A stretch of DNA of 64,000 bases, from positions 62,001 through 126,000 of the forward strand of contig JACPYM010000007.1 of assembly GCA_016196035.1 (NCBI GenBank), read 5' to 3'. The notes beneath the pieces were generated by a model. It made no database searches. It was not told the DNA's origin and saw only the letters and a program-made list of their open reading frames with translations. A program made the translations under genes and the position numbers. This stretch comes from Acidobacteriota bacterium (lineage in GTDB: Bacteria; Acidobacteriota; Blastocatellia; RBC074). This document shows, one piece after another, positions 10,787 through 60,190 of this stretch; the stretch's first letter is position 1; the number at the start of each line of letters is the position of its first letter.

Positions 10787-12173
10787 ATGACAGATAACAA
10801 AACAATTCTAGTGATTGACGACGATCCCGACACGTGCAACTTCCTGCGCGAGATTTTCGAAGAGGAAGGCTGGCAGGTGCGGACGGCCTCCAATGCCAAT
10901 GCCGCGCTGGCGGCGGTGCAGGCAGAACCGTTTGCGCTCATCGTCAGCGACATCAATCTGAACGAAGAACTCAACGGGCTGGCGTTGCTCAAGCATTTCC
11001 GCCAACTCGCGCCCGAGACGCAGGTGATTCTCGTCAGCGGTTTCGGCACGCTCGAAACCGCCATCGAAGCCGTGCGCGAGGGGCGCCTTCGATTTCATCA
11101 GCAAGCCGTTCAACGTGCAGGAAATCGTGGCGATGGCGCGGCGCGCGCTCTCGCTGACCCGCGCCGAACAACGCGCCGAAACCGCAGCCTTGCAGGAACT
11201 GTCGGTGCGTTACGCCACCTCGGGGCTGGTCGGCCACAGCCGCCAGATGATTGAGTTGTATATGGAAATCGCGCGCGTGGCGGCCTATCGCTCGACCGTG
11301 CTCATCATCGGCGAATCGGGCACGGGTAAGGAACTGGTCGCGCGCGCCATCCACGCGCACAGCCCGCGTGTGACGCAGCCGTTCGTCGCCGTCAATTGCG
11401 GCGCGCTCACCGAAACGCTGCTCGAAGCCGAACTCTTCGGCCACACCAAAGGCAGCTTCACGGGCGCAATCGCCGACAAGAAAGGGTTGTTTGAAGAAGC
11501 CGAGGGCGGCACCTTGTTTCTGGATGAAATCGGCGAGACCTCGCCCGCCTTGCAGGTCAAGCTGTTGCGCGCCTTGCAGGAAAGCGAAATCCGCCGCGTC
11601 GGTTCGAGCAAACCCGTCACGGTGGACGTGCGCGTCGTGGCCGCCACCAATCGCAAGCTGGAAGATGAAGTCAAAGCGGGCCGCTTTCGCGAAGATTTGT
11701 ATTACCGGCTCAGCGTTATCACATTGCGTGTTCCCCCCTTGCGCGAACGGCGCGAAGACATTCCGCTGCTCGCGCATCACTTCCTGCAACGGGCCTGCCA
11801 GGAGACGGGCAAGCGCGTGACGCTGGCCGAAGGCGCACTCGAAACCTTGCGCCATTACGCCTGGGTCGGCAACGTGCGCGAGTTAGAGAACACCATCGAA
11901 CACGCCGTGTTACACGCGCGTGGCGCGTTGATTACGCCGGATGATTTGCCCGCCCGTGTGCGTGGCCAGGACGTGCAAGCGCAACCACAGCCGGTGACCG
12001 AGGCGCAATTCTTTGCCGACCTGCCTGCGCTGGAAGAATTGGAGCGGCGCTATTTGATTTACGTGCTCGACGCCGTTGCGGGCAATCGCACCCGGGCCGC
12101 CGAGGTCTTGCAGATTGACCGACGCACGCTTTATCGCATGGCGGAACGCTTCAAACTCAAACTGGACGAATAA
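10787..12173 (+). CDS. NtrC-family sigma54-dependent response regulator, split by one frameshift
   Basis: The receiver domain (residues 1-100: VIDDDPDTC, phospho-acceptor in IVSDINLN, VSGFG) is in one frame up to 11080. The AAA+ domain (GESGTGKE Walker A, GSFTGA sigma54 loop, EAEGGTLFLDEIGE Walker B, R-finger region) and a Fis-type HTH (RTRAAEVLQIDRRTLYRMAERF) are in the next frame, ending at 12173. At the G run 11080-11083 one extra G breaks the reading EGAFDFISKPF. Removing it joins the halves into a normal protein of about 460 residues. It sits 47 bp after the sensor kinase and should be its partner. The indel may be a real mutation or an assembly error. Confidence 0.85.
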
Positions 12174-12297
12174 CCTGGGTACGCACCGCTTCCAGCGTGC
12201 GGGCTTGGCTACAGACGAATCAGTGCCGGAGGGTTTCCTTTCAGCATCCGTCCGCCAATTGCCAAGCCTGCACGCTGGAAGCGGTGCGTACCCAGGG
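12174..12297. repeat. REPIN-like palindrome, family C copy 1
   Basis: It starts on the base after the TAA of the sigma54 activator. The arms CCTGGGTACGCACCGC and the complement include a mini-palindrome (GCTTCCAGCGTGC). The loop contains GCCGGAGGG and TTTCCTTTCAGCAT, shared with copy 2 at 39252-39377 even though the arm sequences differ. Copy 3 is at 61934-62037. Confidence 0.8.
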
Positions 12298-12306
12298 ATA
12301 AAGACT

Positions 12307-13512
12307 ATGATTCTGCGCGAACGAATTCTCGAACAATTGACCGCCAAGAAAACCAGCCTGCTGGCCTTTGAAGACGAGTTTCAGCAGGAGGCCGAAACCT
12401 ATGCCGCCGCGCTGGAACAGTTCTGCCAATTGTCGCTGGCGGAATTGGAAAGCCGGCTGAGCGCGCACGAATGCCCCGGCGCTTTGCCGACGCCCGAGTT
12501 TGGCAGCGTGCCGCAGATGTGCCTGGACTTCGCGCCGCAATTCAACCATCACGCCGACGCGCGCGCCTGGGCCAGCGCAATGTTGCTGGGCCACACCACG
12601 GTCGCCGCCGATGGCAGCCAGATTTTGCCGAATGATGAAATGAGCATCCCGGTCGCGGCGGTGCAGGTGGCCTGGTTCAGCAATGCGCACACGCGCGCGG
12701 GGCGTTATGTCAAAGACTTGGTGTTTGAATTGTTGCCGCCCGAAGACTTGTTGATCGAATTGCGCGGTGAGCGCCAGTTTTCCGAACAGGCGGTCAGCGT
12801 GCGGCGCTTTCGGTTGGAGGTCAAAACACTTTGCGAGCAGATGTGCGCGCTGGCTGCCGATGAAACGCAGCGGGCGCAATTGCCGCTGGTGCTCTTTGAC
12901 AGTTCCCTCGTGATTTCGTTTGCCGAACAGTTGCACGAAGAGTTGGGGCAGCAATACATCAGCGCGGTACTCGAACTGTTGCGCTGTTCGGAACAGACGC
13001 GCGTGCCCGTGGTGGGTTATGTGGATTCCAGCCGCGCGCACGATCTGACGAAACTGCTTTCCATCTGCTTCAACCTGCGCGAAGCCGAGCGCGTGCACGA
13101 TGCGCAGTTGTTGAGCGCGCGTATGAACTGGGGCGCTCGCTCGCCGTTTTTCATTTGCGCGCGGGGCAGTTCGCGCAGCAATCAGCCAAGCGTGTTGGAA
13201 GGGTTTGCCGAATATCGGCGCGGCATCGGGTTTGTTTATCTGAAGACCAACGCGCAGGCGCCACCCGCGCGCTTGGAAATTCCGCGCTGGGTCTATGAAC
13301 AGGGGTTGCTGGATGAAGTCGTTGATCTGGTGCGCGCGGAGGTGATCGTCGGCAACGGCTATCCTTACGCGCTGGAAACCGCCGACGCGGCAGCCGTGTT
13401 GAGCGGCTCCGACCGCGAGGCGTTTTATCGCATCTTTCAACGCTTCGCCGAAGAACAGGGCATCAAGCTGCGCATTTCACCAAAGGCCGCCAGCAAGGCG
13501 CGCCGCAGGTGA
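12307..13512 (+). CDS. NurA-domain nuclease, stand-alone
   Basis: NurA proteins are 5'-3' exo/endonucleases that work with HerA ATPases in DNA end resection in archaea and in some bacterial systems. The 401-residue protein has the family motifs VAADGSQI (about residue 97), VLFDSSL, VGYVDSSRAHDL and NGYPYALETADAAAVL. Start: ATG at 12307, since the open frame upstream is only repeat sequence. No HerA gene is adjacent, unlike the second NurA gene at 55631-56992, to which it is only distantly similar. It may act in general repair. Confidence 0.8.
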   Translation: MILRERILEQLTAKKTSLLAFEDEFQQEAETYAAALEQFCQLSLAELESRLSAHECPGALPTPEFGSVPQMCLDFAPQFNHHADARAWASAMLLGHTTVAADGSQILPNDEMSIPVAAVQVAWFSNAHTRAGRYVKDLVFELLPPEDLLIELRGERQFSEQAVSVRRFRLEVKTLCEQMCALAADETQRAQLPLVLFDSSLVISFAEQLHEELGQQYISAVLELLRCSEQTRVPVVGYVDSSRAHDLTKLLSICFNLREAERVHDAQLLSARMNWGARSPFFICARGSSRSNQPSVLEGFAEYRRGIGFVYLKTNAQAPPARLEIPRWVYEQGLLDEVVDLVRAEVIVGNGYPYALETADAAAVLSGSDREAFYRIFQRFAEEQGIKLRISPKAASKARRR

Positions 13513-53987: not shown

Positions 53988-54398
53988 ATGGCAGAGACCT
54001 TTGAAGAGCAGTACATGGGCGTGCTGCAAAACATCGAATTCGCCCTCGTCACCGCCTATCGCCAAAATCCCAAGCTGAACGACCACGCCGCGCTTTACGC
54101 CGTCGAAATGCTCGTCAAGGTTTACGCCGCCGAAGCGCAAGGCCGCACCATCGCCACGCCACAGTTTCAACCGCACGAACAGGAAGCCTACGATAGTGTG
54201 AAAGCACTTTGCGATTGGCGGTTGGGCAAACAGGCGTTGGTGAATGAGGACGGCAGTGAGGTCAATGTCGGGGCTGATGCGCACACGCACGCCGAAATCA
54301 TCGCCTGTCTCAAACGCATTGCGAAATCCATCCAGGGTTGGACAAAACGCGGCGGGAATCGCGGCTATTTCGATTTCGTCAGCCAGTACGTCCAGTGA
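53988..54398 (+). CDS. Conserved-looking helical protein of unknown function (gene X)
   Basis: A 136-residue protein: EEQYMGVLQNIEFALVTAYR, NDHAALYAVEMLVKVYAAEA, a polar middle, and EIIACLKRIAKSIQGWTKRG ending FDFVSQYVQ. It looks all-helical with no membrane or metal motif, and I do not recognise a named family. The last codons (VSQYV) and following DNA recur at 59286-59308 on the same strand, so a 3' fragment of a second copy lies on the far side of the methyltransferase-NurA-HerA cassette. It is convergent with the Imm35-like remnant. Confidence 0.65.
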   Translation: MAETFEEQYMGVLQNIEFALVTAYRQNPKLNDHAALYAVEMLVKVYAAEAQGRTIATPQFQPHEQEAYDSVKALCDWRLGKQALVNEDGSEVNVGADAHTHAEIIACLKRIAKSIQGWTKRGGNRGYFDFVSQYVQ

Positions 54399-54501
54399 AT
54401 CAAGCGGCGGCGACCGCGTTTGGCTGGGCTTGGTGTGCGGCAGCTTTTGCATATAAAACTGCTCGACCTCCGCCATACTCAACACACGCCCGTTTTCGTG
54501 G
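54386..54501. repeat. Left imperfect direct repeat bracketing the HerA cassette
   Basis: Starting at GCCAGTACGTC, this stretch spans the 3' end of gene X and the 3' end of an Imm35-like gene. It aligns with 59292-59412 with roughly three quarters of positions identical by eye, including GCGGCAGCTTTT and GAACTGCTC-like blocks. It ends about 9 bp from the methyltransferase stop codon. Confidence 0.65.
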
Positions 54502-54505
54502 TCTA
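54400..54505 (-). pseudogene. 3' remnant of an Imm35-like gene
   Basis: The minus strand reads HENGRVLSMAEVEQFYMQK, matching KEDGRVWSMAEVEQFYLQK of the intact gene at 59314-59619. After a 1-nt shift it continues KAAAHQAQPNAVAAA and stops at 54400, parallel to the intact copy's KAAARQTQPNAAAAA. Everything upstream of this C-terminal part is missing, replaced by the methyltransferase gene. Confidence 0.65.
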
Positions 54506-54509
54506 GCGG

Positions 54510-55628
54510 TCAGTGCGGTCTAAGCACCAAGTCCATTTCCCCAGGCTTCTCTTCTTTATCTCCAAACAACGCTGTCTGGGTTTGTTTGAGAAACGGGCGC
54601 TCGATAACTTGCAGCTCTTTCTGCGGGAATACTTGCCCAAGCACTTGGATGGTCGTGTTTAAGGTAAAGTCTCGAGCATCCGTTCTCACGTAGACAGTAG
54701 CGCGATCATCCAGCACTTCCGCGCAATCCTGAAATACGGTCGTCAATAAATGGCGGTAAGCGTCTTTGGAGGCGAAACGGCCTTGCCATTGCTTGCCGGT
54801 TCGAGTGGCCGCAGCCGGTCCACCCAGCATCCAAAGGCGTAACCACTGGTCATAATAATAATCGGTGATTTCACGATAAGGCGGTGAGGTGAACAACAGG
54901 TTAAAGCGTTTCTGCTGCCCAGCAGTTACCTTCTTTTTTAGAGCCTTGCCCAGCTTAGTGCTATCACCAAGATAAACTTTTCCGAGTGCGCCTTCAGGTG
55001 TTCCTTTAGCATAGCGCCAGCCAATTCGGTCGCGGAGAAAGTCCACCGGGTGAATGTCGGGCGGCAGCGAGTCGTGCTCATTCCACCAGTTCACCGAATA
55101 GTCCGGGCTCATCGCTTTACCCTGACGCATTTGATTTGAAAGCGAGCCGTCTTTTTTGCCATGTAGGTTGACGAGAATGAGCGCCATCAGCGTCGCGTCT
55201 ACGCCACGTTCCTTCCATCGCAGCAAATCACGCGAGAACAACAAATAGTTAAGCACTTGCCGGGAGTAGCAATGGCGGAAAAATTGTGGCATTCGGTTTA
55301 GCTGTGGATGCTTGGTAACTTCGGCAATTTTCCAAATGTCTTCCACACGCGCGAGCACATGTTGTTTGGAAGCAGGCTTGAGTTTGACGTGCCCGTAGAG
55401 CCAGCCTACCGGGTTAATCTCTATTCCGACAGCCTCCCTTTGCGTCACTGCGGCGGCATAGACGCTTGAGGCGCGGCCAGCGAAAGGGTCAAGCACCGCG
55501 TCGCCCGGTCGTGAGTACTCCTCTATAACTTGAAAGGCAAAATCGGTGGGGAACATCGCATAGTAAGGCCCGAGGCATGACCAACGCCCCACGGCTGTTC
55601 GGTGGTTGTTCAACGGGTGTTGGCTCAT
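54510..55628 (-). CDS. DNA N6-adenine/N4-cytosine methyltransferase of the HerA-NurA cassette
   Basis: A 372-residue amino-methyltransferase. SAM-binding motif I is LDPFAGRASS (residues 46-55), followed by VGIEINP; the catalytic motif IV is LFTSPPYREI (about 245-254). About 190 residues separate them and probably hold the target-recognition part, giving the alpha-type order. No endonuclease domain is present. It lies 2 bp after the NurA gene and is the last gene of the operon. A role in marking self DNA for a HerA-NurA nuclease complex is inferred from this linkage. Confidence 0.82.
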   Translation of the reverse strand: MSQHPLNNHRTAVGRWSCLGPYYAMFPTDFAFQVIEEYSRPGDAVLDPFAGRASSVYAAAVTQREAVGIEINPVGWLYGHVKLKPASKQHVLARVEDIWKIAEVTKHPQLNRMPQFFRHCYSRQVLNYLLFSRDLLRWKERGVDATLMALILVNLHGKKDGSLSNQMRQGKAMSPDYSVNWWNEHDSLPPDIHPVDFLRDRIGWRYAKGTPEGALGKVYLGDSTKLGKALKKKVTAGQQKRFNLLFTSPPYREITDYYYDQWLRLWMLGGPAAATRTGKQWQGRFASKDAYRHLLTTVFQDCAEVLDDRATVYVRTDARDFTLNTTIQVLGQVFPQKELQVIERPFLKQTQTALFGDKEEKPGEMDLVLRPH

Positions 55629-55630
55629 CG

Positions 55631-56992
55631 CTAGCTCTTTGAAATGAGTTCCTTGGCCAAACGTTCTAACACCTTCTTGCCCAAATTGAGGGGGATGGCT
55701 GCTTCAGCATTGGCCGCAACCAGCGGAGATAATGCATTGGGGTAACGCGAACTGACAAGCTGATTCAATAATCCGATGGCATCTGTCAGGCGCGGGAACT
55801 GCCAAAGTTCAGCCGTGTTCAAATTCTCGTGAGCTTCTGCCAGAAAAGGAAGCATCGCCACGATCTGCGCTCCTGAGCTTGTCTTGTAGAAGAACTTCCT
55901 GCCGAAATAGGTGTCGCGCCCATACGGCTTCGGGCTTTCCGAGAAGATGATGTTCTGCTTGATGTAGGAATCTGTCAGCAGCGCAATCGAGTTGAGCGGG
56001 AATTGGCCGGAGTTGCCTTCTTCATCCGTGTCCAACTGCTTGAAGTGCTCGACGAATTCGCCGGTCTTCTCAATTCCGATCAGCAGCAATTCCTGCCCAT
56101 CAGTTGCTTCTTTGACCAGAGCATTTATCCGCGTCAGTTCTTTGGAAATTGACTGACTCAGCCAGGCTGGATGCCCAAAGATTGCCAGCGGGCCGTCTAT
56201 CACGATCGCCAGCTTGCGCAATGATGAGAGCCAGTTCTTCTGCTCGAGCGTCCTGAGAATATGAACGACCCAGACTCGCTCAAGCACTTGCATAATCTCG
56301 GCAAACATTTTGCCGTTGGTACCTGCCGGGTTCATTCCTTCGTGAATGCGCAAGGCATCGGTCGCGTAAAGCGTCTGGCTCAGTTGGCAGTTGCAAGTGT
56401 ATTTGCCTTGGCCTCGCACATACTCCCCGTCTTGAATCGGGCAGTCTTCATAGGGACAGCGCTGCTCGCGCGTGTTCTGCGGTTTGTGGGCCAGCAATGC
56501 TTCGTAGGTCTCCAACAGTGACTCACTGTCTTCGGACATGCGCTTAGCGCCCAGCACTTCAAAGAGCGCTTTTCTGAGCGAGTCTTTGGCTGACTGCTCG
56601 CCTGCGGCAATGACATTGCTGCCCGGAAAAGCCCAATCAATGGATTCCGCCTGTTCGGTCGTGCGAAAGACCTTGGGATCAACCGGGCGGTTCTGATCGA
56701 GTTGCCTGATCTTTTCCACATCCAGCAGCACCGAAGCGATGGTCAGATAGGACGCCTCCGCGCCGGGGAAGCCGTTCTTGACCTGTACCTCATGATGGCT
56801 GCCATCAACGGCCAGCACCCAATCGGGCTGCCATTTGCTCAGGGGCAATTCCGCCGCCTGAAGTTTATCGAGCGAAGCCGTCGCGCCGGTTGCCAGGCGA
56901 ATCTTGTAAGCGCCCAGCAACTGTTTAACCTTTTCGCTTTCGGCCAGGCGGCGCAACGATCTGTACTGCGCAAACTCCCCTTCGTATGGCAT
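55631..56992 (-). CDS. NurA-domain nuclease of the HerA cassette
   Basis: A 453-residue NurA-like protein: WVLAVDGSHHEVQV (Asp63-Gly-Ser, the first metal-site motif), SYLTIASVLLDVEKI, a Cys cluster in the middle (REQRCPYEDCPI, KYTCNC) that may bind zinc and is not part of ordinary NurA, AIVIDGPLAIFGHPAWL and LLLIGIEKTGEFVEHF. It starts 2 bp after the HerA gene. Together they should form a DNA-translocating nuclease. It is clearly different from the stand-alone NurA at 12307-13512. Confidence 0.8.
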   Translation of the reverse strand: MPYEGEFAQYRSLRRLAESEKVKQLLGAYKIRLATGATASLDKLQAAELPLSKWQPDWVLAVDGSHHEVQVKNGFPGAEASYLTIASVLLDVEKIRQLDQNRPVDPKVFRTTEQAESIDWAFPGSNVIAAGEQSAKDSLRKALFEVLGAKRMSEDSESLLETYEALLAHKPQNTREQRCPYEDCPIQDGEYVRGQGKYTCNCQLSQTLYATDALRIHEGMNPAGTNGKMFAEIMQVLERVWVVHILRTLEQKNWLSSLRKLAIVIDGPLAIFGHPAWLSQSISKELTRINALVKEATDGQELLLIGIEKTGEFVEHFKQLDTDEEGNSGQFPLNSIALLTDSYIKQNIIFSESPKPYGRDTYFGRKFFYKTSSGAQIVAMLPFLAEAHENLNTAELWQFPRLTDAIGLLNQLVSSRYPNALSPLVAANAEAAIPLNLGKKVLERLAKELISKS

Positions 56993-56994
56993 GG

Positions 56995-59106
56995 CTAGAC
57001 CTCGAATTTCCTGACTTGAATTGGCACGACGAACAGGTTGCTCAGCGTCTTGACCCGGATGAAGCCGCGATCCTGCGCGCGCCGGATGGAGGCTTCAAAA
57101 TCCTCAAAGTCGTAATACTTGCAAAGCTCTTTGGTTTCGTCGGTGTTGTTCAAATGGCCGATGAACCAGTTGGCGGTGTTTTTGAGAATGTTGCGTTGAA
57201 TGCTGCTGACTTCCTGCGTGGCGTATACCATCCCGATGCGGTACTTGGCGCCTTCCTTCGCCGTGCGTACCCAAACGTCCCGCATCTCCATATCAGAGCC
57301 AGCCGGAAGAATGTTGTGCGCTTCTTCCACGTAGACCAGAATTTCCGGTAAGGCTTGCTCACCCTGCCGGAAACGACTCTGATTGGCGCGGAAGATGTGC
57401 CACATGATTCGGTCCGCCGAGGACTTGTTGATTTCAGGGTCGCCGCTAGACTGGTCAATGATGACAAGCTTGCCCGCCACTAAATCGTTGTAGATGTCGT
57501 CGGCAAAGTCAGTTGTGGTACTACCCGCGTGAAGTTTACTGACCTTGCCTAGTTGTTTAGGGCCATTGGCGCGATTAGGGGCAAACATCTCAAGAAGCTT
57601 TTCTAAATCCTTGTCAGCCCAAGAATCACCAGAGGCTTTTGGTCTTTCGTTAATGTACCAAGCCGCGAATCTCTGATAGCCACTGTCTTTCGTGGTCATA
57701 AATTCGTGCAAGCCAGCAAGAGCCATTGCCAATTGTGCCCAAGAAGGCTGTTTATTGCTTAGTATTTTAGCCGCAGAGATGAAGCGGTTTTTCGCCTCAA
57801 CGTCCTTGGTCTCACTTTCATTCATCGCCTTCAGAAGGTTCTCGTTAAATATCTTTTCTGTACTAGGTAGCAGGGCGTTTGGTGGCTTAAACCCTGCGAG
57901 CACTAATAGCGCGCGATAAACAAGTACCTTTCTTTTGTATCGGGTCAGGGCTGACCAATCGGCCTCAGGGGGTTGTTCAAAAGACACTTGGCAAAAGTTT
58001 TCGATGAACTTGACATCGTAGCTTTCCAAGGCCCTATCTATCATTTCTTTCCCGATTTGCAGATTGTTTTCCTCGAAAAAATTCAACAGCATCAAACGGC
58101 GGCCCAGGTCATTCGGGTGTGGCTGGATGCCATAAGTCACGACATCCTCTTTCTTCCCATTGGTATTGGCTTGCCAGACGTTTTTGATCGCCGAAGGGTT
58201 TTTCTGCTTGTTCACATCCTGCGCGTTCTCATTGGCATACTCGCCATTCGGATCGAAAACGATTTGCCCGATGCGCAACGGCCTGTCTTGATCGAACCGC
58301 AGTTCGAAGACGGACTTCAGCACGATCTTCGTCGTGTTCGATTTACCAGTGCGCGTCATCCCGAAGAGCGCTGTCTTTTGACTCAGCAAATCGGCTGGCT
58401 GCAAGGTGACGGGGACATCCGACACGCCCTGAAAATCCCGATTGGTTGAGGCATACCGTACTTCACCGACCGTGACGGACTTGTCGGAAAGTTGATCGGT
58501 GCGCGACGGGTCACGATAGTTGACGATCATTCCCAGCGCCGCGCCGTTCGATTTGTAGACCTTCAGCCCGCGATTGGGGTAGTAGTTCGATAAGTCGCTG
58601 CCAAACCGCAGACTCAGCGACACACGATTTTCGACTTGCGGATTTTGTTCGAGATAAAACGTCCCGATGACGCGGCATTTCACGCCTGCAAACGAGAGAA
58701 TGTTATTGGTCGCCGCATCCATCATGCTTGGGTCATCCCAATGCGTATCTGTCTCTCCGCTGACGCGCTGGGCGATCTCCGCCCTGATTCGTTCAGCTTC
58801 GGAACTGTTCGGCAGCGCAGCAGCATCCATGACCCGCAAAAGAATGACGGACGCGTCCTCGGCTTTATAGTCAATGTCCTCCTCCGGATTGACGCGCGTG
58901 GCAATCAAAAAGCTGAGACTGGGAATGCCTCCCACTTGCTGACGATGGTAATCGTGAATTTGCACCAACGCTGTTTCGTAATTGACGGAGTAAACTTCAC
59001 CGACGTATTGAGCCTTTTGAATCAGTCTTCCGAATATCTCTTTGGTTTGAGTGACGGATGATTTCTTTTGGTCTTCGGCAAAAGCTTCGTTGAGCGGAGA
59101 TGGCAT
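56995..59106 (-). CDS. HerA-like DNA-translocating ATPase
   Basis: A 703-residue FtsK/HerA-superfamily ATPase. The N-terminal region resembles a HAS-barrel (FGRLIQKAQYVGEVYSVN). The Walker A is FGMTRTGKSNTTK (residues 248-260), FDPNGEYAN follows, and the Walker B is LVYVEEAHNILP (about 590). The C-terminus contains a sensor-like YATQEVSSIQRNIL and an Arg-rich segment. HerA hexamers pump DNA into bound NurA. An AGGAG lies before the start. First gene of the HerA-NurA-methyltransferase operon, with about 180 bp of leader inside the bracketed segment. Confidence 0.88.
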   Translation of the reverse strand: MPSPLNEAFAEDQKKSSVTQTKEIFGRLIQKAQYVGEVYSVNYETALVQIHDYHRQQVGGIPSLSFLIATRVNPEEDIDYKAEDASVILLRVMDAAALPNSSEAERIRAEIAQRVSGETDTHWDDPSMMDAATNNILSFAGVKCRVIGTFYLEQNPQVENRVSLSLRFGSDLSNYYPNRGLKVYKSNGAALGMIVNYRDPSRTDQLSDKSVTVGEVRYASTNRDFQGVSDVPVTLQPADLLSQKTALFGMTRTGKSNTTKIVLKSVFELRFDQDRPLRIGQIVFDPNGEYANENAQDVNKQKNPSAIKNVWQANTNGKKEDVVTYGIQPHPNDLGRRLMLLNFFEENNLQIGKEMIDRALESYDVKFIENFCQVSFEQPPEADWSALTRYKRKVLVYRALLVLAGFKPPNALLPSTEKIFNENLLKAMNESETKDVEAKNRFISAAKILSNKQPSWAQLAMALAGLHEFMTTKDSGYQRFAAWYINERPKASGDSWADKDLEKLLEMFAPNRANGPKQLGKVSKLHAGSTTTDFADDIYNDLVAGKLVIIDQSSGDPEINKSSADRIMWHIFRANQSRFRQGEQALPEILVYVEEAHNILPAGSDMEMRDVWVRTAKEGAKYRIGMVYATQEVSSIQRNILKNTANWFIGHLNNTDETKELCKYYDFEDFEASIRRAQDRGFIRVKTLSNLFVVPIQVRKFEV

Positions 59107-59177
59107 ACTGGCTTGCTCCTGTGAGTTTAACTGGATGAAATCGCTTTTTGTCTCGGGGCTGCAATCAATACATTGAG

Positions 59178-59260
59178 TGACTGGCGCAAAGCAGTCTATC
59201 CGACACCCTGTGATCAGGCCAACGATTTTTGCTCAAGTGATGAAAGCGCCAGTCACGTTG
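59178..59260. repeat. Inverted repeat in the leader of the HerA operon
   Basis: GTGACTGGCGC near 59178 and GCGCCAGTCAC near 59250 form an 11-bp inverted repeat with about 60 bp between. It may be a regulatory site or the edge of the inserted segment. Confidence 0.4.
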
Positions 59261-59291
59261 AAGAAGTTCGGAACTGTCAGGATAACGATTG

Positions 59292-59412
59292 GTAAGCCAG
59301 TACGTCAGGTAAATCATGCCGCAGCCGCAGCATTCGGTTGAGTCTGGCGCGCGGCAGCTTTTTGCAAATAGAACTGCTCAACCTCTGCCATGCTCCACAC
59401 CCGTCCGTCTTC
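59292..59412. repeat. Right imperfect direct repeat bracketing the HerA cassette
   Basis: GCCAGTACGTC and the following 110 bp align with 54386-54501. On the plus strand the first bases read VSQYVR-stop, a remnant of the 3' end of a gene X copy. The rest is the 3' end of the intact Imm35-like gene. Confidence 0.65.
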
Positions 59413-59619
59413 TTTGCCGATACACGCATAAACCGCGCCAGGCACATAACCTTCTTCAACCAGTTGCGCCGAGCCACTTAAAAATGTCCAGAAACTTTCA
59501 TTCTCGGACTGCAATCCCACTTCGCCGAATTCGTAACGAGACAGGCGCGCGGAATTTAGGATGCGTTCGCTGATGTAGCGCTCAGCAATGCGCAGGGCCG
59601 CTTCATAGTTCAAAGCCAT
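59314..59619 (-). CDS. Imm35/YrhB-like small protein
   Basis: A 101-residue protein: YEAALRIAERYISERILNSA, FWTFLSGSAQLVEEGYVPGA, VYACIGKEDGRVWSMAEVEQ, then an Ala/Gln tail. The central aromatic FWTFL, GYVPGA and GKEDGRVWS pattern resembles Imm35/YrhB immunity-type proteins. It starts 5 bp after the cysteine-peptidase gene and the SD lies in that gene's end, so they form a coupled pair. An immunity or chaperone role for the peptidase is inferred. A 3' fragment of a second copy is at 54400-54505. Confidence 0.55.
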   Translation of the reverse strand: MALNYEAALRIAERYISERILNSARLSRYEFGEVGLQSENESFWTFLSGSAQLVEEGYVPGAVYACIGKEDGRVWSMAEVEQFYLQKAAARQTQPNAAAAA

Positions 59620-59623
59620 TGTT

Positions 59624-60139
59624 CTACCTCACTGCAATTGCCGCCTGGCCACGCCCATTTGAGTGCAGCCAAAACGTGAGAAATTCTGATACGCCGACAC
59701 GATATGCCTTGCCTTCCAATTCTGGCAAGGGATCACGAATTGCTACCAACCCATCTTTAATTTGATCTACCAGCAAAGCGTGTCCGGCCTTGCTACGAGG
59801 CTTGGTCACGAAAACCAGTGCCGGACCTGTTGTCACGGCTTGCCGCAATTCGTCAAAGGACAAATCGTTGCGGTATTGATGAATGGCCGATAGGCCAAAC
59901 TGCTGGAGCACCGAAGGAACCCTTGAAATGAAGGCTCCCTTCTCATCATCCAACCAAGTGCGAAGCTCAGCTTCTGAAACCGTCACGCCTGCATCCACCA
60001 GTAGCATTCGGCAACATGCTGCTACACAAGAGTCAGGCAAGTACTGCCCGAAAAGCACGCCGTTCGGCTGGTAAGGCTGCACTTCAAGCGCGGCAAAGAA
60101 ATAGCCGCGCGCTTTGCTTGTATCAGGGTAATTCGGCAT
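59624..60139 (-). CDS. C39-like papain-fold cysteine peptidase
   Basis: A 171-residue single domain with the full catalytic set: Cys38 in DSCVAACCRMLL, His120 in KAGHALLVDQI and Asp136 in VAIRDPLPE. The Gln before the Cys region (FGQYLPDSC) can form the oxyanion hole. This matches C39 bacteriocin-processing peptidases and papain-like toxin domains. There is no transporter or leader peptide nearby. Followed directly by an Imm35-like gene, it may be a toxin-immunity style pair or a self-contained protease with its inhibitor. Confidence 0.75.
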   Translation of the reverse strand: MPNYPDTSKARGYFFAALEVQPYQPNGVLFGQYLPDSCVAACCRMLLVDAGVTVSEAELRTWLDDEKGAFISRVPSVLQQFGLSAIHQYRNDLSFDELRQAVTTGPALVFVTKPRSKAGHALLVDQIKDGLVAIRDPLPELEGKAYRVGVSEFLTFWLHSNGRGQAAIAVR

Positions 60140-60190
60140 CGTCACACTGTTCTTTTAGCGCCAAGCAAGCCGCAAACTACTTCGCACCAT

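Follow-up and report, generated by a model that had tools for sequence, protein, structure and literature searches.

The window, a stretch of 64,000 nt from an Acidobacteriota bacterium, contains a cassette of less than 5 kb in which three adjacent genes encode a HerA-like ATPase, a NurA-like nuclease and a DNA amino-methyltransferase (MTase; Table 1). The Pfam matches of all three products exceed the curated cut-offs, and both intergenic gaps measure 2 bp, as an earlier sequence-only reading of the window had stated.

Table 1 Features of the cassette and its surroundings (window positions)
Feature	Position	Strand	Length	Remarks
Gene X	53988-54398	plus	136 aa	native to the PGM-DivIC-X locus
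Left copy of imperfect direct repeat	54375-54497			end of gene X and frameshifted Imm gene tail
DNA amino-methyltransferase	54510-55628	minus	372 aa	Pfam N6_N4_Mtase, E 5e-14
NurA-like nuclease (TdpB-like)	55631-56992	minus	453 aa	Pfam NurA, E 3e-14
HerA-like hexameric translocase ATPase	56995-59106	minus	703 aa	Pfam DUF87/HerA, E 6e-12
Right copy of imperfect direct repeat	59289-59412			final 7 codons of an X-like gene with their stop; end of the intact Imm gene
Imm gene	59314-59619	minus	101 aa	weak Imm-NTF2-2 match, E 0.02
C39-peptidase-like gene	59624-60145	minus	173 aa	right flank, outside the cassette

Cassette genes and flanking repeats

The Walker A motif of the ATPase (GMTRTGKS) starts at residue 249. 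In the nuclease, D63 and D266 are invariant among 23 aligned NurA relatives. The extra Cys cluster noticed in the sequence-only reading is borne out: C179, C184, C200 and C202 are the only cysteines of the window NurA, and exactly four Cys occupy the corresponding stretch in 23/23 aligned proteins, including archaeal plasmid and Vibrio phage copies. This insert is zinc-ribbon-like. The MTase carries motif I (DPFAG) at residue 47 and motif IV (TSPPY, with SPPY at 248), and its predicted structure (pLDDT 88) adopts a methyltransferase fold. The segment around motif I finds its matches among beta-class enzymes (for example 2zie), yet lies N-terminal to motif IV; by its motif order (I then IV) the enzyme is circularly permuted relative to the beta class, which is also the nearest class in sequence. 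Among the PADLOC 2023 models, HerA and the MTase gave generic matches, HerA additionally matched mad8 weakly (E 2e-11), and the window NurA matched none. A second NurA gene, of the canonical type and with no HerA adjoining, lies at 12076-13512 of the window.

The imperfect direct repeats of about 120 bp that the sequence-only reading had placed around the cassette are real: on nucleotide comparison the two copies are 76.6% identical over 124 bp (E 2e-21). When two 1.5-kb flanks were slid along the whole window at the cassette spacing (n = 141 tiles), the cassette repeat was the sole pair with E<1e-8. The described arrangement also proved correct, with a whole gene X and a broken Imm gene on the left and a whole Imm gene and a broken X on the right. 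The two X copies end in FVSQYVQ and LVSQYVR, each followed by the stop, and both cassette junctions rebuild a convergent X/Imm pair. Gene X matches no Pfam family, and the label "Imm35-like" found no support, the weak match given in Table 1 being the only one for this gene. Pairing of the C39-peptidase-like gene with the NTF2-like immunity-type gene is conserved (window 59314-60145; L051:7395-8210) and is also seen in genome G006.

Differences between the two Imm tails fall at 2/29 first, 3/28 second and 16/29 third codon positions. Because they concentrate at third positions, the copies diverged as working coding genes, one of which was truncated later. This pattern argues against a simple, fresh target-site duplication as the origin of the repeats. 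The earlier idea of an insertion between duplicated modules is thus supported in part: it keeps its repeats and its rebuilt X/Imm junctions, but has to accommodate copies that diverged as genes before truncation. The cassette may have come in together with part of a diverged X/Imm junction, or the duplication may be older; the repeats fit both histories. Relatives lacking the segment between the repeats were not found: X and Imm were each sought in 58 relatives, and none has X directly against Imm without a cassette. A genome of the same genus (G001) keeps the PGM-DivIC-X order without the cassette and has a different gene after X, with the contig ending soon after, and G006 has its C39-Imm pair without X. 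Imperfect direct repeats bracket two other cassettes, namely L069 (7079-7164 and 12744-12829; 86 bp, 79%) and L056 (6619-6675 and 12635-12691; 57 bp, 91%), while the other tiles of the control loci show no such repeats. Since only these two other loci have them, bracketing repeats are not a defining part of the cassette.

Conservation, co-inheritance and exchange of the methyltransferase

When a two-row NurA alignment was searched against 84,980 GTDB species genomes, 23 loci were retrieved. Leaving out L071 (distant, 29%) and L074 (broken, with a HerA end and 34 NurA codons), all 21 close and unbroken NurA relatives keep the three genes in the order HerA-NurA-MTase, so the neighbourhood read from the window recurs across genomes. 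These relatives span about eight phyla, with host labels of Cyanobacteria, Abditibacteriaceae, Chloroflexi, Poribacteria, Acidobacteria, Gammaproteobacteria, Gemmatimonadetes and Planctomycetes; many hosts are metagenome bins, and L062 and L065 have common flanks and may be one source. Gaps between the genes are mostly -4 to +24 bp; apparently larger ones arise where the HerA frame is split or a start further upstream was chosen. Three cassettes that are intact in other respects have a broken HerA frame (L054:7785-9883, L064:7862-9971, L072:7885-9978), by decay or assembly error.

Clustering of 315 ORFs from the 23 loci returned HerA, NurA and the MTase as the only widely recurring genes; a conserved fourth gene was sought in the same set and not found. 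The distance matrices of the three gene trees correlate strongly (Mantel r 0.85-0.94), a level reached in 0/2000 permutations (permuted maximum 0.51), while host phyla are mixed. The association also holds from the side of the MTase: among 190 relatives, its family occurs at full strength in G000 and G128 only, both times within the cassette, and in each of 19 host genomes the copy at full strength was the one in the cassette. The nuclease itself is patchily distributed (8/396 Acidobacteriota genomes in a profile survey). Taken together, these sequence comparisons support the view that HerA-NurA and the MTase are conserved together under selection, whichever side the search starts from.

Cassettes are carried by many bacteria, some archaea, viruses and plasmids, with most copies being chromosomal. 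A Vibrio temperate phage holds one as cargo beside genes labelled Shedu and Gabija, and a second record carries a NurA identical to this phage copy. HerA-NurA with an MTase is also found on three IMG/VR contigs, a Halorarius plasmid and a Deferribacter megaplasmid. An IS200/IS605 element carrying TnpB splits the HerA gene on the Deferribacter plasmid (L078:1955-5753). Defence genes occur among the genes flanking the cassettes, and neither neighbour clustering nor Pfam annotation of the flanks revealed mobile-element genes recurring beside them.

A wider NurA profile survey, in which loci were not chosen for the presence of methyltransferases, covered about 1060 genomes comprising Acidobacteriota, Cyanobacteria and the classes of one planctomycete and one Anaerolineae genome. 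It returned 21 genomes, four of which had previously been counted and one of which lay on a cut contig (G999), leaving 16 informative loci. An MTase directly adjoins HerA-NurA in 16/16 of them, placed first, last or convergently. The interchange of METHYLTRANSFERASES in this survey involves three kinds: permuted SPPY enzymes in four loci (G276, G361, G466, G1127), ordinary non-permuted beta enzymes in four (G586, G645, G857, G1115) and D12/Dam enzymes in eight (G011, G033, G068, G290, G840, G1009, G1066, G1070). Canonical solitary NurA loci contained an MTase in 0/11 cases (123 ORFs). Because unrelated MTases exchange on one engine, methylation itself, and not a particular protein contact, would be what is selected. 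This exchange of classes is the strongest argument from the sequences that the system needs methylation rather than a given partner surface.

Other partners also occur. In the Roseithermus locus L071 (7872-16702), HerA-NurA lies directly upstream of a Type I restriction-modification operon (HsdR-HsdM-HsdS). A cyanobacterial plasmid clade (Calothrix, Tolypothrix, Nostoc; L077, L122, L123) encodes an HTH regulator, HerA and NurA with no MTase nearby; therefore, the engine can exist alone, or its mark lies elsewhere. A second type of NurA-HerA pair was observed in Acidobacteriota (L109:5061-9435, L110:2582-7032, L112:3672-7680), L110 coming from a genome in the window's own family. A TGT-family gene follows this pair (PF01702 in L109 and L110), and DUF6884 precedes it in L109 and L112. 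The TGT-family partner suggests a 7-deazaguanine DNA mark.

Structural kinship and comparison with known systems

Profiles built from the NurA sequences matched no NurA or TdpB among solved structures, so the link to TdpB required a predicted structure. The AF2 model of the window NurA (pLDDT 81) has TdpB (8wfd_G) as its best PDB match (Z 20.5, rmsd 4.3, 319/358 residues aligned), and Foldseek likewise ranked TdpB first; the next NurA match of the model is Sulfolobus NurA (Z 14.1). For HerA, the best solved-structure match by phmmer is TdpA (8wet_A, E 4e-14, 55 bits; next match 34 bits). Nuclease and motor are closest to TdpB and TdpA of TdpABC, as modelled for NurA and by sequence for HerA.

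TdpABC is a phosphorothioation-based antiphage system of thermophiles. TdpC reportedly marks DNA with phosphorothioate, and TdpAB (PDB 8WET/8WFD) is said to degrade unmarked phage DNA and to be inhibited by this mark. Like TdpABC, the cassette combines in three genes a HerA-like motor, a NurA-like nuclease and a DNA-modifying enzyme. Its third gene, however, is an N6_N4_Mtase (DPFAG, TSPPY) in place of TdpC, and no other gene recurs. Furthermore, the cassette NurA exceeds the solved TdpB chain by about 95 residues and has the four-Cys insert, and the cassette is distributed over many phyla, mostly not thermophiles. Since TdpC is absent, we do not count the cassette as a member of TdpABC, but it probably works in a similar way.

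Other systems share parts of this design. HerA-DUF4297 and HerA-SIR2 are likewise compact defence units joining a HerA motor to a partner effector, but their partners are not NurA and they contain no modification gene (PMC11291478). In the HerA/FtsK capture, DndFGH and BREX-related capture systems, a motor feeds foreign DNA to a nuclease, as would be the case here, and a DNA-modification partner is sometimes present; they are larger, multi-gene systems, and NurA is absent from the text of both descriptions (PMC10853773, PMC12839542). The methylation-associated defence system MADS, to which the weak mad8 match points, has a large gene set including mad8 and mad2, compared with three recurring genes here. 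The cassette resembles restriction-modification in the broad sense, with a modification enzyme and a nuclease engine inherited together, but unlike in Type II systems no sequence-specific restriction endonuclease recurs and NurA is the only nuclease. HerA-NurA-MTase was not described as a defence system in the open-access literature that we searched; an earlier mention may exist.

A candidate restriction-modification-like system

We consider it likely that the cassette is a self-contained, three-gene restriction-modification-like defence system, in which a TdpAB-like translocase-nuclease would degrade unmarked DNA. The MTase would mark host DNA with m4C or m6A. HerA would assemble as a ring on double-stranded DNA and NurA would dock there, and the ATP-driven complex would pull in and degrade DNA without the mark. 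On self DNA, methylation may block loading, translocation or cutting, as phosphorothioate reportedly does for TdpAB. This reading builds on the observed gene content and order, conservation, co-inheritance, interchange of MTase classes and the fold kinship to TdpA and TdpB, from which we infer that the proteins form a complex, that methylation is the self mark and that the system acts against viruses. The copies on a phage beside genes labelled Shedu and Gabija, on viral contigs and on plasmids, the defence genes in the flanks and the Type I operon next to HerA-NurA in Roseithermus also speak for it, whereas the cyanobacterial plasmid clade with no MTase nearby and the donation role of a related operon in Thermus speak against it. 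The sequence-only reading had proposed that the cassette might tell self from non-self with no classical restriction enzyme; the conserved two-way linkage fits this proposal.

The grouping of NurA, a HerA-like ATPase and a methylase also calls to mind the Thermus element ICETh1. There, the type IIG enzyme TthHB27I is co-transcribed with NurA, a HerA-like ATPase (TdtA) and a presumed methylase, and DNA donation depends on both TdtA and NurA (PMC5365140, PMC7767461). A donation or transfer module of this sort, exporting or processing chromosomal DNA with the methylase as an accessory, is nevertheless improbable for the cassette. ICETh1 has another gene order, a type IIG enzyme and an integrase with att repeats, and neither neighbour clustering nor flank Pfam annotation found a type IIG enzyme, an integrase or an att site recurring with the cassette; the repeat in the window is made up of coding sequence from the flanking genes. 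The methylase is nearly dispensable in ICETh1 (PMC5365140, PMC7767461) but an invariant partner here, the cassette is itself cargo of a temperate phage, and its nearest solved relatives are defence proteins. We attach just as little likelihood to a classical end-resection or repair pair with a regulatory MTase as a chance neighbour. HerA-NurA is known as an end-resection pair in archaea and Deinococcus and shares both enzyme folds with the cassette (PMC9960219), although a study of the Thermococcus pair itself doubts this role (PMC12977600). Those pairs come without a methyltransferase, and the window NurA is farther from them (Z 12-14) than from TdpB. Linkage of the pair to three distinct kinds of MTase sits poorly with chance neighbourhood. 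The patchy presence of NurA and the copies on mobile elements likewise speak against a repair role, and mre11-rad50, which defines the archaeal HerA-NurA module, is not a recurring neighbour in the 23 loci.

The precedent of DUF4297-HerA, which defends by degrading host and phage DNA alike (PMC11291478), lends some plausibility to abortive infection, with HerA-NurA as a suicidal nuclease that guards the MTase or its methylation state and is triggered when an invader causes loss of methylation. Exchange between MTase classes whose target sites are expected to differ would be easier to reconcile with a self mark than with a host factor under guard, and we rate this possibility as small, if marginally above the previous two. 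Least probable of all, to the point of being remote, is protection of mobile elements, whereby the MTase would shield its element from host restriction and HerA-NurA would exclude competitors. Copies on phage, plasmids and viral contigs point in this direction; against it, most copies are chromosomal and have no recurrent mobile-element gene beside them, and the mechanism overlaps with the restriction reading. Restriction-modification accounts for the exchange of MTases more simply than any of these four alternatives.

A wider idea, towards which we lean slightly less than away from it, is that HerA-NurA is a general restriction engine accepting chemically different self marks, with the sensing of the mark being independent of one chemistry. 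The marks concerned would be amino-methylation by at least three MTase layouts, Type I restriction-modification methylation, a TGT-family or 7-deazaguanine-type mark and the phosphorothioate of TdpABC. If the restriction-modification reading is true, TdpABC would be one branch of a wide restriction family that extends beyond thermophiles and combines a shared motor-nuclease with swappable DNA-marking enzymes. This would raise the question of how related translocases stop at a base methyl, at a backbone sulfur and perhaps at 7-deazaguanine.
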